From a virus: a DNA stretch of 23,669 nt. The position numbers and the translations under genes are program-made. Below are positions 2,119 through 20,169 of the stretch, one piece after another; within the stretch, counting starts at the first letter, position 1; each line of letters begins with the position of its first letter. The stretch covers positions 1-23,669 of the IMG/VR virus record IMGVR_UViG_3300030406_003234. The stretch is one strand, 5' to 3'. The notes under the pieces were generated by a model that was given only the letters and a program-made list of their open reading frames with translations, was not told the origin of the DNA and did no database searches.

Positions 2119-3017
2119 TAAATTTCACCGACCACCTACACCAATTAAATAATTACCGAAAAGGCAAAACAAAAAAAGCCTTAAAAATTGATCAACACGA
2201 ATTTGATAGTGCTTTTAGATTTGTACATGGTAATATGAATATGATTTTAGGGCATAATAACGTAGGTAAAACGCACTTTATATTTTATTTGATGTTATTA
2301 TATACACAAAAACATAATATAAGATGGTTGGTGTTTAGTTCAGAAAATGAGCCATACTCTTTGATCAAGAAGTTGGTTGAATTTATAGAGGGCAAACCGA
2401 TCAACAAAATTGATGAAGCCGATTACAACAAACATACGGAATATGTAAACAACCATTTTAAATTTGTAGATTGTAATCGCCAATACACACACAAAGAATT
2501 ACTTGAATTAGCAACTAATATAAAAAAGGCATGGGATTATGATGGCTTATTAATTGATCCTATAAATTCACTAAGAAAAGATATAAAAGTAGGTAGTAAC
2601 GGTTATCAATACAGCTATGAAAGTTTAACAGATATTAGAATATTCTGTAAAGCTAATCAAATTGCTACTTGGATAAATTGCCACGCAGTAACCGAGGCAT
2701 TAAGAAAAAGGCACGAGAAAGGCCATTCTTTTAGTGGTCAACCTATACCACCAATGATTGGTGATGCTGAAGGTGGTGCAGTCAATGGCAATAGATGTGA
2801 TGATTTTTTAATTATACATAGATATATCTACGACCAAATAGATTGGATATATACAAGGCTCTATGTTGCTAAAGTAAAGTATCAAGAATTAGGTTACAGA
2901 CCGACCTCAATAGAAAGTCCATTAATGTTTAAATCTATCCTAAATAATGTTGGTTTCGAGTTAAATGGAAAAAATTTAGTAACTTATGTAACTAAAGAAC
3001 AATTAAAAGCACTTTGA
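2112..3017 (+). CDS. RecA/DnaB-fold ATPase, probable replicative helicase
   Basis: The 301-residue protein has a Walker A motif GHNNVGKT (47-54), a Walker B strand LLIDP (146-150), and a strand ending in the sensor-like TWINCHAV (186-193). This is the RecA-like core of phage helicases of the DnaB/RepA class. No N-terminal primase or DnaB-type domain is present, so it is core-only. It probably hydrolyses ATP to unwind or translocate on DNA at the replication fork. The start is a GTG at 2112; a stop lies two codons upstream, and the next in-frame ATG (residue 42) would remove residues just before Walker A. It overlaps the sigma gene by 4 bases. A RecA-type recombinase is the main alternative. 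Confidence 0.75.
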   Translation: MLINFTDHLHQLNNYRKGKTKKALKIDQHEFDSAFRFVHGNMNMILGHNNVGKTHFIFYLMLLYTQKHNIRWLVFSSENEPYSLIKKLVEFIEGKPINKIDEADYNKHTEYVNNHFKFVDCNRQYTHKELLELATNIKKAWDYDGLLIDPINSLRKDIKVGSNGYQYSYESLTDIRIFCKANQIATWINCHAVTEALRKRHEKGHSFSGQPIPPMIGDAEGGAVNGNRCDDFLIIHRYIYDQIDWIYTRLYVAKVKYQELGYRPTSIESPLMFKSILNNVGFELNGKNLVTYVTKEQLKAL

Positions 3018-3529
3018 ATGCACTTTCTGAAATAGCAAAAAAACATAATGATTGGATAAATATTGTCTTGTCTTTTGGTTGTGATCCTGATATTGCAGAG
3101 GATTTAGTTCAAGAAATGTATTTAAAAATAGATTCGTTGATCAAGAGAGGAATAGACATCACCTACAAAGACGAAATAAATTACTATTATATCTACAAAA
3201 CTTTAAAAAGCCTTTTTTTAGATTTAAAACGCAAAGAAAAAAATATTATTAAAGTAAATATTTATGATAATTATATAAAAAATTATGGTAAATATGTGGA
3301 AGAATATTTACAATATAATGAACAAGAAATAGATTTAGTTGAAAAAATGCAAAAATTAAATAAAATATTAGACAACTTATATTGGTACGATAGGAAAATA
3401 TTTGATCTGATCAGCAACGGAATGTCTATACAAGAATTATCTAATCAAACAAAAATTAGTTATTATTCTTTATACAACACTTATAGAAACGTAAAAAAAC
3501 ACATAAAAAATAATTTACAATGGGATTAG
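3014..3529 (+). CDS. ECF-like phage sigma factor
   Basis: The 171-residue protein has the two-domain plan of ECF sigma factors. A region 2-like part includes DIAEDLVQEMYLKI (26-39, like the AEDLVQEvF helix of region 2.2) and YYIYKTLKSLFLDLKRKEK (58-76, like the region 2.3-2.4 block). A region 4-like part at about 111-167 has the helix-turn-helix MSIQELSNQTKISYYSLYNT (137-156). It would bind host RNA polymerase and redirect it to phage promoters. The start is a TTG at 3014 overlapping the TGA of the ATPase gene. The repeated late motif CGTTATA in this window is a plausible target, since ECF -10 elements often contain CGT. The sequence relation is by eye only. Confidence 0.68.
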   Translation: MNALSEIAKKHNDWINIVLSFGCDPDIAEDLVQEMYLKIDSLIKRGIDITYKDEINYYYIYKTLKSLFLDLKRKEKNIIKVNIYDNYIKNYGKYVEEYLQYNEQEIDLVEKMQKLNKILDNLYWYDRKIFDLISNGMSIQELSNQTKISYYSLYNTYRNVKKHIKNNLQWD

Positions 3530-3690
3530 GAGATTTAGTAGAAATAATTACAAAATACACAGGCATAAAATGGTTGGTAAAAAAAATATGGGGAGAGGAT
3601 TGTGGTTGTGATGAAAGAAAGGAAGAATGGAACAAAATAAAAATAAATAGGAATGGCACAAAAAACATTAGAAAAAGAGGACAGGATTAG
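3520..3690 (+). CDS. Small CGC-motif phage protein (56 aa)
   Basis: The ATG at 3520 overlaps the end of the sigma gene and the TAG is at 3688-3690. The product begins MGLGDLVEIITKYTGIKWLV and contains EDCGCDERKEEWNKI (27-41). The 'DCGCDERK' signature after an amphipathic helix recurs in small proteins of Bacteroidota phages as I remember them; function is unknown. It overlaps the next gene by 38 bases. Membrane association through the first helix is possible but not strong. Confidence 0.6.
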   Translation: MGLGDLVEIITKYTGIKWLVKKIWGEDCGCDERKEEWNKIKINRNGTKNIRKRGQD

Positions 3691-3874
3691 TTGGCTAAAT
3701 TTTTTAAATGCCAAAACCTCAACCGTTACATACGAAGATATAGAGTTTATCGTATTGTTACACGCCAAATATTATAATCATAAACCAATTGTGCCTAAAC
3801 CTTGTGGTTGTAAAAACGATCCTGCTCGAAAACAAATTAATAATTATATTGATGAGCTAAACGACCTCTTATAA
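3653..3874 (+). CDS. Small CGC-motif phage protein (73 aa)
   Basis: The 73-residue soluble protein has a central segment LNAKTSTVTYEDIEFIVLLH and a late PCGCKNDPARKQINNYIDEL (49-68). It shares the CGC motif followed by a basic helix with the preceding small protein. This suggests a related metal- or partner-binding element, although the rest is different. Its stop overlaps the ATG of the endonuclease gene by one base (TAATG), so the three are probably translated together. Function not recognised. Confidence 0.62.
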   Translation: MAQKTLEKEDRISWLNFLNAKTSTVTYEDIEFIVLLHAKYYNHKPIVPKPCGCKNDPARKQINNYIDELNDLL

Positions 3875-4518
3875 TGGAAGATTATTATTATACAATAGAC
3901 ATACCAAAAACAGTATATAGGAATTTTAATAAAAGTTCTTGGGTAAATAAACATTTTTCTGTTTCGTATGTTGGCAATTGTATGGAGTTGATGACTGATT
4001 TTTACAAACATACAGAGATCAGAACTCATAATGGTTGGGAAAATTACTACAACAATATAGTTGGATTTAATAATTTAACTAAAATATACGATATATTAGA
4101 ACAGCGATTAGATACTAAAAAAGAATATATAAAAAAATATATATGGCACAGAGTAATTGGTCAAACTTGGAATGGATTTAGGAACGAAATTGCAGTTATA
4201 GATGAATTACAATTAGAGTTTCCTAATACTCAAATAAAAAAGACATCATTTGAAATAGATCACGAATATTGCATAGATGCTGAAATGTACATAGGAGATT
4301 TTCTTTTGCTTGGTATTCAAATAAAACCTGTAAGTTATATGTCTATGAACACAGCCTATCAAAATAGGGCAAAGGAAAACCATAGGAAAAAAAACCAACA
4401 ATATAAACAAAAATATGCGCCATATATTTATGTATATCATAAAGATCATAAAATACACCGCAAACAGTACGTTTTTGATCAGATAAACGTAATATCTACA
4501 CTAAGAAAACATTTTTAA
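3874..4518 (+). CDS. MjaI-like type II restriction endonuclease (CTAG candidate)
   Basis: The 214-residue protein resembles the MjaI restriction endonuclease family. It has an N-terminal THNGWENYY segment (51-59), a central helix with RNEIAVIDEL (103-112), and a PD-(D/E)XK-type core. In the core, D135 lies in EIDHEYCIDAEMY and the strand LLLGIQIKPVSYM places Q149 and K151 in the metal-site position, a known family variant of the (D/E)xK motif. MjaI cuts CTAG. No cognate methyltransferase is seen in the window. Instead the window appears to lack CTAG altogether, so the phage could be immune by site loss. Likely roles are host-DNA breakdown or exclusion of other phages. Family confident at the motif level; specificity is inferred. 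Confidence 0.75.
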   Translation: MEDYYYTIDIPKTVYRNFNKSSWVNKHFSVSYVGNCMELMTDFYKHTEIRTHNGWENYYNNIVGFNNLTKIYDILEQRLDTKKEYIKKYIWHRVIGQTWNGFRNEIAVIDELQLEFPNTQIKKTSFEIDHEYCIDAEMYIGDFLLLGIQIKPVSYMSMNTAYQNRAKENHRKKNQQYKQKYAPYIYVYHKDHKIHRKQYVFDQINVISTLRKHF

Positions 4519-5818: not shown

Positions 5819-5867
5819 TTACTTAGGCATAATACTTACTTTATTATGGATCTTATTGGTTTACTAA
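5703..5867 (+). CDS. Possible overlapping small membrane ORF (54 aa)
   Basis: A second frame runs from an ATG at 5703 (or a TTG at 5748) through the end of the coiled-coil gene and the first 22 bases of the exonuclease gene, stopping at TAA 5865-5867. It ends in a hydrophobic segment, AVAISYLGIILTLLWILLVY, preceded by a lysine-rich stretch. This resembles an N-in single-pass membrane peptide. Overlap with two convincing genes and chance hydrophobicity in AT-rich DNA keep confidence low. Confidence 0.25.
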   Translation: MKKPYQNINLPKTEQLKEQGDQNKKLKKYNEKLTAVAISYLGIILTLLWILLVY

Positions 5868-6619
5868 ATGGCGAATATGTTAAAAGAAAAGAAACACTTG
5901 ATCAGATGCAAAATGATGACTATTATTATGGTTATTTAGGCAAAAACGCATTAAGTTCAAGTTCAATTAAATTATTATTAGATAGTCCTAAAAAATATAA
6001 ATATGTTACTGAATATGGTAACGAACAAACAAACGCACTTACAGCAGGACATCTATTTCACCAAGCTATATTAGAGCCACATAAATTTGCAGATAATATT
6101 TATGTTGATGTGCAAAGCAAAAACACTAAGGCTTATAAATTAGCTAAAGAAGAATATGGAGAAGTGTTTACAATTAAAGAGAAATATCAAGCAGAGAGGT
6201 TAGCTGATGCGTTCCTAAGAAACGAACACGCACTAAAATTAATAACAGATTGCCAATTTGAAGTACCTGCTATTGATTACGTATTTGGATATCCATTTAG
6301 AGGCAAGGCTGATGTATTAGGCAAAAATTATTTGGTTGATTTAAAAACTTGTAGCGACATCAAATCTTTTCCATTTCAAGCAAAAAAATATTATTACAAT
6401 GTGCAGGCATACATTTATTCTAAATTATTTAATATTAACTTTGATCAAATAAAATTTATAGCAATAGATAAAGGAAGTTTAGATATTGGTATTTATGATG
6501 TATCAGAACAATTTTATAAGCAAGGAGAATTATTAACAAAACAAGCAATAGACACTTACGAAAGTTTTTTTGTTGAACACGAAGAATTAGACAACTATTG
6601 TATAAAAGGAACTTTATGA
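5846..6619 (+). CDS. PD-(D/E)XK exonuclease (RecE/exodeoxyribonuclease VIII-like)
   Basis: The 257-residue protein fits the phage PDDEXK/RecE-type family (DUF3799-like). It has an N-terminal YYGYLGKNALSSSSIKLLLD stretch (27-46), the TAGHLFHQAILEP block with H69 (66-78), GKAD with D156, VDLKT with D165 and K167, and the QAYIYS helix with Q187. Together these form the metal-dependent nuclease site. Such enzymes resect dsDNA ends and feed ssDNA to an annealing protein for recombination-dependent replication. The ORF at 1006 is the candidate partner. Its stop overlaps the next start (ATGA). Confidence in nuclease family is high. Confidence 0.85.
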   Translation: MDLIGLLNGEYVKRKETLDQMQNDDYYYGYLGKNALSSSSIKLLLDSPKKYKYVTEYGNEQTNALTAGHLFHQAILEPHKFADNIYVDVQSKNTKAYKLAKEEYGEVFTIKEKYQAERLADAFLRNEHALKLITDCQFEVPAIDYVFGYPFRGKADVLGKNYLVDLKTCSDIKSFPFQAKKYYYNVQAYIYSKLFNINFDQIKFIAIDKGSLDIGIYDVSEQFYKQGELLTKQAIDTYESFFVEHEELDNYCIKGTL

Positions 6620-7029
6620 AAACACCGAAAGAATTTATAGAAGAATTACAAAAACAAACCAACATAGATATATTTCAACCAACGAGAAATACAGAAATAA
6701 TCCAATATCGTTGTTTATCCACATTTATATTACATAATTATTATAATATGAGGTTTATTGAAATAACTAATTTTTATAAACAAAACGGATTAAGTTTTGC
6801 CAACGCAAACATACTAAACAGTTATAAAAAATTTATAACCTATAAAAAAATTAATAATAAATTGGCACTTGATTATGATACTATATTAAAAAAATTAAAC
6901 AATAGTGTCCAACTTAAAAGGGCTATGTTGATTGAAGAAATAAAATACGCAACACCTAAAGAAATAAACGCATTTCAAGATGTATATGATAGGAAGTTGC
7001 TATCGAGTGTAAACAAAATCTTAAATTAA
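6616..7029 (+). CDS. Possible DnaA domain IV-like DNA-binding protein
   Basis: The ATG at 6616 overlaps the exonuclease TGA (ATGA), so I prefer it over an upstream TTG at 6598. The 137-residue protein contains IIQYRCLSTFILHNYYNMRF (28-47), then IEITNFYKQNGLSFANANIL and SYKKF. The spacing of arginine helix, 'm-x-x-x-x-I' helix, turn and 'vl-x-s-x-k-x' helix resembles the C-terminal origin-binding domain of DnaA. It would then be an origin- or operator-binding factor. The resemblance is by eye and the DHTT core is not clear, so this is tentative. It is the last gene before the first late promoter. Confidence 0.5.
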   Translation: MKTPKEFIEELQKQTNIDIFQPTRNTEIIQYRCLSTFILHNYYNMRFIEITNFYKQNGLSFANANILNSYKKFITYKKINNKLALDYDTILKKLNNSVQLKRAMLIEEIKYATPKEINAFQDVYDRKLLSSVNKILN

Positions 7030-7030
7030 T

Positions 7031-7037
7031 CGTTATA
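7031..7037 (+). promoter_or_regulatory. Late promoter motif, copy 1
   Basis: CGTTATA followed by exactly five bases (TTAAT) and the ATG at 7043. The same arrangement occurs at 10425, 17257, 18577 and 20880. A CAAA lies 17 bases upstream (7014). If CGTTATA is a -10 element, transcription would begin at or next to the A of the ATG. Confidence 0.65.
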
Positions 7038-7042
7038 TTAAT

Positions 7043-7576
7043 ATGAAACCTAATAAAATAAATATCAGTGATTTAAAAGAAAATCCAAACAATCCAAGAT
7101 ATATTAAAGGATATAAATTTGAAAAATTGGTAAAAAGTATTAAGGAGTTTCCTGAAATGCTAAAACTTAGACCAATTGTTGTTGATGAAAATAATGTTAT
7201 ACTTGGTGGTAATATGCGATACAAAGCATCCGTAGAGGCAGGTTTAAAAACAGTTTATGTAATACAGGCAGATGATTTTACTGAGCAACAAAAAAAGGAA
7301 TTTATAATAAAAGATAATAGCAACTTTGGTGAGTGGGATTGGGATTTACTTGCAAACGAATGGAATAATGATGAGTTAAAAGAATGGGGGTTAGATGTCG
7401 TTAGCTTAGAGGAAAATTTTGATAATGAAGAAATGTTTGAAAGTAATGACACAGATACGAAAGATGAGGTAATAATTAATTTAAAAATGCCATATTACCA
7501 ATATGAAGAAATTGATCAAGAGTTCCAAAGTTTTATTAAAAAATATCCTAATATAGTATGCAGAATCCAAAACTAA
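7043..7576 (+). CDS. ParB/sulfiredoxin-fold domain protein
   Basis: The 177-residue protein has the ParB N-terminal domain: INISDLKENPNNPRYIK (6-22), LRPIVVDENNVILGGNMRYK (42-61) with the GG-x-x-R motif, then KDNSNFGEWDWDLLANEW (90-107). In phages this domain often forms the N-terminus of DNA methyltransferases or stands alone near the terminase; its nucleotide-binding pocket can serve as a nuclease or switch. Here it stands alone with no methyltransferase domain. It is led by late motif copy 1 and overlaps the glycosyltransferase by 19 bases. A role in DNA handling before packaging is an inference. Confidence 0.8.
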   Translation: MKPNKINISDLKENPNNPRYIKGYKFEKLVKSIKEFPEMLKLRPIVVDENNVILGGNMRYKASVEAGLKTVYVIQADDFTEQQKKEFIIKDNSNFGEWDWDLLANEWNNDELKEWGLDVVSLEENFDNEEMFESNDTDTKDEVIINLKMPYYQYEEIDQEFQSFIKKYPNIVCRIQN

Positions 7577-8907
7577 ATGTGTTAATTTATCCAATGTTGT
7601 CGGTTGATCACCTCAACGCAGATAGCAACTATATCATTATCAAGCAATTATGCAACGAATTATTAAAAACAAAACGATATAATTTTTTTCTAATAATTGA
7701 CAAGGATAGAAACTATGTAAAAGATGATCTAAACTCATTGGTAAAAATAATTAAGATACCATTACCAAAATCAAAAAAACATCAAGTAATACATTTTAAC
7801 AGCAATTTATTTAGAGAGTTATTTAAAAAATATGCCTTTGATTTAGTATGGAATAATGTAGTTGAACAAGGACATCATTTTAGATACTTTCAAGACACTT
7901 TATTAGATAGCCAACGAACTAAGGTGATTAATTATCATCATTACGTAATACATAGAAGTTTAGAGAACCTCACAAACTATTTACCTTGCAAACATATTTT
8001 ATATGATCAACTTGTTGGTAGTTTAGGTGCAGATTTAAATTATTTCCATACGCAATATTGTTATAATATGTTAGAGGAAGAAGCTAAGGATATTCTTTCT
8101 GATCAGAGTTTAGAATTACTAAAATCAAAAAGTTGTATTGAATTAGGTGGATATGCAAACAAAATACCAAGCGAAAACAAATACGATAAATTTACATTTA
8201 TATATAATCATAGATTAGATGGTTATAAAAATTGGCAAATAACATTTAACCAATTTGATAAATTATATGATGAGGGTTTAGATTTTCAAGTGATATTAAC
8301 AGCAGGAGATAAAGACAACATCAATACTATTAACCAAAAACCATATACAATAGTAAAATCATTTACTAAACACCAAGATTACATAAAGGAATTATCCAAA
8401 TGCCACGCAAACACCATAAACAGCACACACGAAACATATTGCATTAGTATTGCTGAAAGTATTATGAATGGTCAAGTTGTTGTGTTGCCTAATAGGTGTA
8501 CTTTTCCTGAATTAGTAGGCGCAGATGATAAGTATTTATTCAACAACACAGAGGAACAATACGAAATGCTTAAAGAAATCATTTTAAACAACATACGACA
8601 AAAACAATATAAAACACACAAACAACTAAAACTAACCAACCACGTTAACAATATACATAACCTATTCAGTGAATTAGCAAAACCTGATAAAACAGATATA
8701 TTTGATCGAATTAAAAAACAAATAACAAAAGATAAAATAAAAGCATATTTATCAAAAAGAAACGAAGTTACATTACAAGAGTTTAGATCTTATATATTTA
8801 GTTTAGGATATGCTTCACAAAGTTTTCCTAATATTAAAATAAAATATATTCTTAATGAGTTTGGTTACGATTACAACATAAATAAAGATAAATACATATA
8901 TGGGTAA
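7558..8907 (+). CDS. GT-B glycosyltransferase with extra C-terminal domain
   Basis: The protein has 449 residues. The first ~375 fit a GT4-like GT-B fold: an N-terminal NVLIYPMLS strand, the FIYNHRLDGYKNW donor-domain entry (214-226), VILTAG (245-250), and the E-x7-E motif in HETYCISIAES (E292, E300) followed by VVVLPNRCTFPELVG (307-321). Residues ~385-449 form a separate basic helical region resembling a winged-helix. The gene lies between a ParB-like gene and the terminase. Plausible targets are modified phage DNA bases or a virion surface; no hydroxymethylase or base-modifying gene is visible. Fold confident, substrate unknown. Confidence 0.78.
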   Translation: MQNPKLNVLIYPMLSVDHLNADSNYIIIKQLCNELLKTKRYNFFLIIDKDRNYVKDDLNSLVKIIKIPLPKSKKHQVIHFNSNLFRELFKKYAFDLVWNNVVEQGHHFRYFQDTLLDSQRTKVINYHHYVIHRSLENLTNYLPCKHILYDQLVGSLGADLNYFHTQYCYNMLEEEAKDILSDQSLELLKSKSCIELGGYANKIPSENKYDKFTFIYNHRLDGYKNWQITFNQFDKLYDEGLDFQVILTAGDKDNINTINQKPYTIVKSFTKHQDYIKELSKCHANTINSTHETYCISIAESIMNGQVVVLPNRCTFPELVGADDKYLFNNTEEQYEMLKEIILNNIRQKQYKTHKQLKLTNHVNNIHNLFSELAKPDKTDIFDRIKKQITKDKIKAYLSKRNEVTLQEFRSYIFSLGYASQSFPNIKIKYILNEFGYDYNINKDKYIYG

Positions 8908-19218: not shown

Positions 19219-20169
19219 ATGTCAGTATCAATTACATCAACTTATGCAGGAGAGTTTGCCGGTAAATACATCGGTGCCGCTCTTTTGTCAGCTTCAACTA
19301 TCGATAATGGTGGTATTGAAGTAATGCCTAACGTAAAGTATAAGGCAGTTATGAAAAAAGCATCATTCGATACTATCGTAAAAGATGCGACTTGTGACTT
19401 CCAAACAGGTCAAGGAACTTTAACTTTAACAGAAAAGATCCTAACACCTGAAGAGTTCCAAGTAAATTTAGATATTTGTAAAAAAGATCTACACTCAGAT
19501 TGGGAAGCCGCTCAAATGGGATTCTCTGCTTTTGATAATTTACCTCCACAATTTTCTGATTTTGTAATCAGTAGAGTTGCCGCTGAGGTTGCTAACAGAA
19601 CAGAGTTAAATATTTGGTCAGGTGACACAGCTACATCAGGACAATTCAACGGATTTACTAAATTATTATCTACAGATGCAGATTTACCTGCTGCTCAAGA
19701 AATTGCAGGAACAACTGTAACAGCTTCAAACGTAATCGCACAATTAGGATCTGTAGTAGATGCACTTCCATCAGCATTATATGGAAAAGAAGATTTATAC
19801 ATCTATGTATCTCAAAACATAGCAAGAGCTTATGTTAGAGCTTTAGGTGGATTTGGTGCTTCAGGTCTTGGTGCTAATGGTACCAACAATATGGGTACTC
19901 AGTGGTGGAATAATGGTTCATTATCTTTTGATGGTGTGAAATTATTCGTTGCTCACGGATTAGCTGATAACGATATGATTGCTGCTCAAAAATCTAACTT
20001 ATTCTTTGGAACAGGTCTATTAAATGATATGAACGAAGTTCGTGTTATTGATATGGCCGACTACGATGGATCACAGAATGTAAGAGTAGTAATGAGATTT
20101 ACTGCAGGCGTACAATACGCAATTGTAGAAGATATCGTTACTTATGGTATAGCAAACTCTGCTAACTAA
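19219..20169 (+). CDS. Major capsid protein
   Basis: The 316-residue protein has the pattern of HK97-fold capsid proteins from flavobacterial phages. Strand-rich N-terminus TYAGEFAGKYIGAALLSAST (8-27), PNVKYKAVMKK, a TPEEFQVNLDICKKDLHSDW segment (76-95), a spine-helix-like FVISRVAAEVANRTELNIWS (114-133), and a C-terminal RVVMRFTAGVQYAIVEDIVT (290-309). Codons are more C-ending than in neighbours, typical of a highly expressed gene. It lies 12 bases after the scaffold gene and is followed by a strong terminator. Confidence 0.88.
   Translation: MSVSITSTYAGEFAGKYIGAALLSASTIDNGGIEVMPNVKYKAVMKKASFDTIVKDATCDFQTGQGTLTLTEKILTPEEFQVNLDICKKDLHSDWEAAQMGFSAFDNLPPQFSDFVISRVAAEVANRTELNIWSGDTATSGQFNGFTKLLSTDADLPAAQEIAGTTVTASNVIAQLGSVVDALPSALYGKEDLYIYVSQNIARAYVRALGGFGASGLGANGTNNMGTQWWNNGSLSFDGVKLFVAHGLADNDMIAAQKSNLFFGTGLLNDMNEVRVIDMADYDGSQNVRVVMRFTAGVQYAIVEDIVTYGIANSAN

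Follow-up and report, generated by a model that had tools for sequence, protein, structure and literature searches.

How can a phage carry a restriction-type endonuclease gene when a restriction enzyme without its methyltransferase normally endangers its own genome? The question is raised by an open reading frame at 3874–4518 (plus strand) of the window, an entire IMG/VR record (23,669 bases) that may represent just a fragment of the phage. The window contains terminase, portal and other structural genes, and among annotated phages the terminases closest to its own include those from Flavobacterium phages (~37% identity). A first-pass annotation had taken the encoded protein for an MjaI-like endonuclease, the prototype MjaI being an enzyme that cuts CTAG, and had proposed that the phage tolerates this solitary nuclease by having lost every CTAG site.

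By comparing the 214-aa protein with profile collections, we could confirm that it is MjaI-like, since it matched Pfam RE_MjaI (PF09568) with 34.5 bits, above the curated cut-off of 22.7, as well as PADLOC REase_II (1.1e-9). RE_MjaI was also matched by 13 of 14 diverse relatives of the nuclease at E 0.01 or better. In an alignment of 14 diverse family members, E105 (codon 4186–4188), D135 (4276–4278), Q149 (4318–4320) and K151 (4324–4326) were invariant and, following the PD-(D/E)XK pattern, these residues (4186–4326, plus strand) presumably form the active site. The structure model is confident (pLDDT 94), with alternating helices and strands. The protein thereby combines conserved acidic residues, an (E/Q)xK motif and a predicted alpha/beta core, as PD-(D/E)XK nucleases do. 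Neither the model nor the sequence found a significant match among solved structures, so that the fold was assigned from profile, motif and topology. Median dN/dS values of 0.04–0.07 in three groups of relatives indicate that the protein is maintained under strong purifying selection. No match to it was found in annotated phage records, nor any relative in the cellular genome collection that we scanned.

Then, we counted the words of the window exactly. In line with the zero CTAG and more than 60 GATC claimed in the first-pass annotation, we found 0 and 79, respectively. The 60–70 CTAG that it had expected from composition also agrees with our computed value of 61.8, while Markov models give lower expectations (51.5 at first order and 46.9 at second order). 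CTAG had the most negative second-order Markov score among all 256 tetranucleotides, followed by CTGG (0), CATG (5) and CCAG (0), with ~37 CTGG and ~32 CCAG expected. Hence, the loss of CTAG stands but the word was drawn too narrowly: CTGG and CCAG are equally lost, which rules out CTAG as the only lost word. What has been lost is the degenerate palindrome CYRG, of which CTAG is one form, and over positions 1–23669 a single CCGG (19259–19262) is all that is left of it. We also shuffled the 20,955 coding bases 300 times while retaining every protein and the codon usage. The shuffles contained on average 36.9 CTAG (minimum 22), 27.8 CTGG and 26.4 CCAG, and for CYRG as a whole 96.0 (minimum 78 of 300) compared to 1 observed.

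When the virus collection was searched with a small alignment, 80 nuclease loci were recovered, with 47–100% identity to the query. Over 82 carrier loci, the observed and expected counts were 2/2397 for CTAG, 5/1826 for CTGG and 9/1961 for CCAG. CCGG was only partly lost (53/905), the remaining sites being concentrated in few loci, with partial loss in L205, L210, L213 and L217. Most words one base away from CYRG (CTAC, GTAG, CCTG, CTGC) were near or above expectation in carriers, and CATG was low alike in carriers (0.11 of expected) and non-carriers (0.09). In contrast, 138 loci of non-carrier relatives, a set selected for having CTAG, kept CTAG, CTGG and CCAG at 0.86, 0.73 and 0.75 of expected. 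When 20 carrier records were counted whole, 5 CTAG were found against 1477 expected. On a terminase tree covering the phages with a visible slot (38 carriers and 61 non-carriers), CYRG was lost in all 38 carriers and kept in 59 of the 61 non-carriers; L255 and L279 lack CYRG although no MjaI-like gene was detected in them. The trait changes state six times on this tree, and it offers four well-supported independent pairs, a number too small for a sign test, of which most agree and none runs the other way. Thus, the proposal of a solitary nuclease made safe by site loss gains from about 80 further carrier contigs that are site-depleted almost without exception, while related non-carriers keep their sites.

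To be solitary, the nuclease should have no cognate methyltransferase. Profiles of N6_N4_Mtase, DNA_methylase, Dam and MethyltransfD12 matched nothing in the window, in agreement with what had been claimed, and the genes adjoining 3874–4518 are not methyltransferases. The same four families were absent from eight further records of carriers, among them those of 30.8, 29.0 and 28.7 kb, so the cognate methyltransferase expected of a Type II restriction-modification system was found in none of these nine. Among the 21 carrier records, 9 (one of them being the window) lack any recognisable DNA methyltransferase; since such records may be incomplete, a distant one could still exist. The other carrier records encode assorted methyltransferases.

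The nuclease gene sits in a defined gene order. A sigma-like gene (3014–3529, plus strand; NCBIfam sigma70-ECF at 8.1e-10, below the curated cut-off), which occupies the same position in relatives, forms the upstream border of a slot. It is followed by a small companion protein of 73 aa with a CxC motif (3653–3874, plus strand), directly upstream of the nuclease, and then by the nuclease itself. The downstream border is an exonuclease VIII-like gene (5846–6619, plus strand; Pfam DUF3799 at 4.2e-21 and PHROG exonuclease VIII at 3.1e-36).

Homologues of the companion protein (131 matches) also precede, in sister phages, an unrelated protein of ~138 aa that carries a D...ExK motif and whose model is similar to archaeal Holliday junction resolvases (E about 1e-4 at best). 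No CATG was found in 105 of the 111 loci with this gene. In four loci of one lineage (L030:4222-4632, L031:3386-3796, L037:3927-4361 and L040:4212-4622), ExK is changed to T/S-M-N and CATG is present 27–30 times compared to 42–50 expected. These mutated copies are still under purifying selection (dN/dS 0.05) and may therefore serve another function. L058 keeps CATG despite an intact motif, and the CATG pairing is weaker than that of CYRG: CATG is scarce throughout the group, and it is also missing from 27 of the 45 phages that have no active CATG-linked gene. In our window too, CATG is strongly depleted (5 vs 50 expected, and 4 vs 31 in the codon shuffles) and no CATG-linked protein was seen there, so something other than such a gene purges words as well.

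A further family of ~131 aa, found in 80 loci, is paired with GATC, for which 4 sites were observed where 1608 were expected, 77 loci having none; CTAG was counted 1478 times in the same loci for 2586 expected. The GATC pairing held in a wider scan. Gene content also tied GATC loss to other clusters that are not nucleases, among them a glycosyltransferase-like and a nucleotidyltransferase-like one, and these were set aside. Annotated phage records gave no match to the CATG-linked protein, and the tested members of both families received no above-cut-off assignment in Pfam, PHROGs or NCBIfam. The slot proteins of these sister phages are PD-(D/E)XK-like and unrelated, each with its own lost word. 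We consider it likely that solitary restriction nucleases are exchanged in a common slot of these phages, each of them forcing its word out of the phage genome. If this holds, the missing words would reveal the specificity of uncharacterised nucleases, namely CYRG for the MjaI-like family, and CATG and GATC for the two others.

Could the sites have been purged from outside, by CYRG or CTAG restriction-modification systems of the hosts, the phage nuclease being incidental or acquired from such hosts? The first-pass annotation had itself cautioned that a host CTAG system might be the cause. Precedents exist: HF1-group haloviruses without CTAG and GATC are credited to host systems (PMC7230728), and non-temperate phages commonly avoid sites (PMC6286503). 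Moreover, CTAG on its own is missing from some relatives in which no such gene was detected. However, host-driven avoidance should be independent of the phage nuclease gene, and on the terminase tree the loss tracks that gene; two unrelated families in addition pair with other words, and the cellular collection holds no relative of the nuclease. Host purging as the sole cause is therefore disfavoured, and we regard an origin of the loss in the hosts as unlikely.

It is more improbable still that the nuclease forms part of a restriction-modification system, its methyltransferase being either encoded beyond the ends of the record or recruited from elsewhere among the genes, and that site loss is secondary. 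Some carrier records do encode N4/N6 or C5 methyltransferases, and records may be incomplete, but the types differ among carriers, the four families are absent even from the three carrier records of about 29 to 31 kb, and a genome protected by methylation would have no need to lose its sites. Finally, since TAG serves as a stop codon and many genomes are poor in CTAG, the lost words could be a product of composition or codon bias, with no nuclease involved. For the window this reading is already refuted by the codon-preserving shuffles, which still give ~96 CYRG; the words are also retained in non-carrier relatives, and most of those differing by one base occur at normal frequency, leaving bias with hardly any credibility.

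Thus, very probably, the protein is a solitary Type II-like PD-(D/E)XK nuclease acting at CYRG from an exchangeable slot, and the phage is self-immune by site loss. Regarding cleavage, exact specificity, timing and biological role, we infer that the nuclease would cut unmodified DNA at CYRG and that selection would have removed CYRG from the phage's own genome. The phage would consequently need no methyltransferase, and would survive its own nuclease because almost no CYRG sites remain. Expression would probably occur alongside early replication and recombination genes. The nuclease would then probably shred host DNA and, CYRG being a frequent word, reduce it to short fragments, which the nearby exonuclease VIII-like protein would finish, extending the damage. 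This role is suggested by the neighbouring genes and by analogy with chloroviruses, whose restriction endonucleases are believed to break down the host DNA at an early stage of infection (PMC7019647). Exclusion of rival phages that still have sites is another possible role. The slot would be exchangeable, sister phages holding unrelated nuclease-like proteins and lacking CATG or GATC instead.

Several known systems share part of these properties. The protein resembles R.MjaI by its RE_MjaI profile score above cut-off and by CTAG lying within the lost word; the loss of CTAG in carriers is consistent with cleavage of CTAG by the nuclease, though here the loss suggests a broader word, CYRG, and the adjoining genes include no methyltransferase. 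PacI is also solitary, without cognate methyltransferase, in a genome said to lack PacI sites (PMC3488263), and within our record the pattern is of the same type, with no methyltransferase match and almost no CYRG. PacI is, however, a bacterial enzyme of the HNH type that recognises 8 bases (PMC4081073), whereas here a phage gene with many relatives is associated with a frequent 4-base word. Chlorovirus restriction enzymes are likewise virus-encoded, but an adjacent methyltransferase gene is kept there, while here none was found and the sites are absent. HF1-group haloviruses show the same complete loss of CTAG, along with other tetranucleotide palindromes, attributed to host systems (PMC7230728), whereas here the loss tracks the phage's own nuclease gene. 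Our search of the openly accessible literature returned no paper with CYRG as a DNA recognition word and no phages with the same self-immunity strategy. A large phage group appears to have escaped self-cutting by removing the target word from its genome, on repeated occasions and for three or more different words. Besides host defence, site avoidance in phages would thereby have a phage-internal cause, and the specificity of a nuclease would become readable from genome composition.

Some relatives showed other missing words. CTAG was absent with CTGG and CCAG normal in L055, L029, L031, L156 and others, in which no MjaI-like gene was detected; gene-content candidates for this CTAG-only loss were not convincing. 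The MjaI-like carriers L215, L216 and L221 are also without TCGA (0 of 67 expected). Downstream of the slot in the window, a ParB-like protein (7043–7576) matches the N-terminal part of ParB-methyltransferase fusions of relatives such as L075 and L026, the methyltransferase half being absent from the window gene, and a glycosyltransferase-like gene (7558–8907) overlaps its end. In L075 (1–21146), ACGT, TCGA, GCGC and GGCC are absent while CATG, GATC and CTAG are present, and the slot holds a different protein of 163 aa, at 6607–7098.
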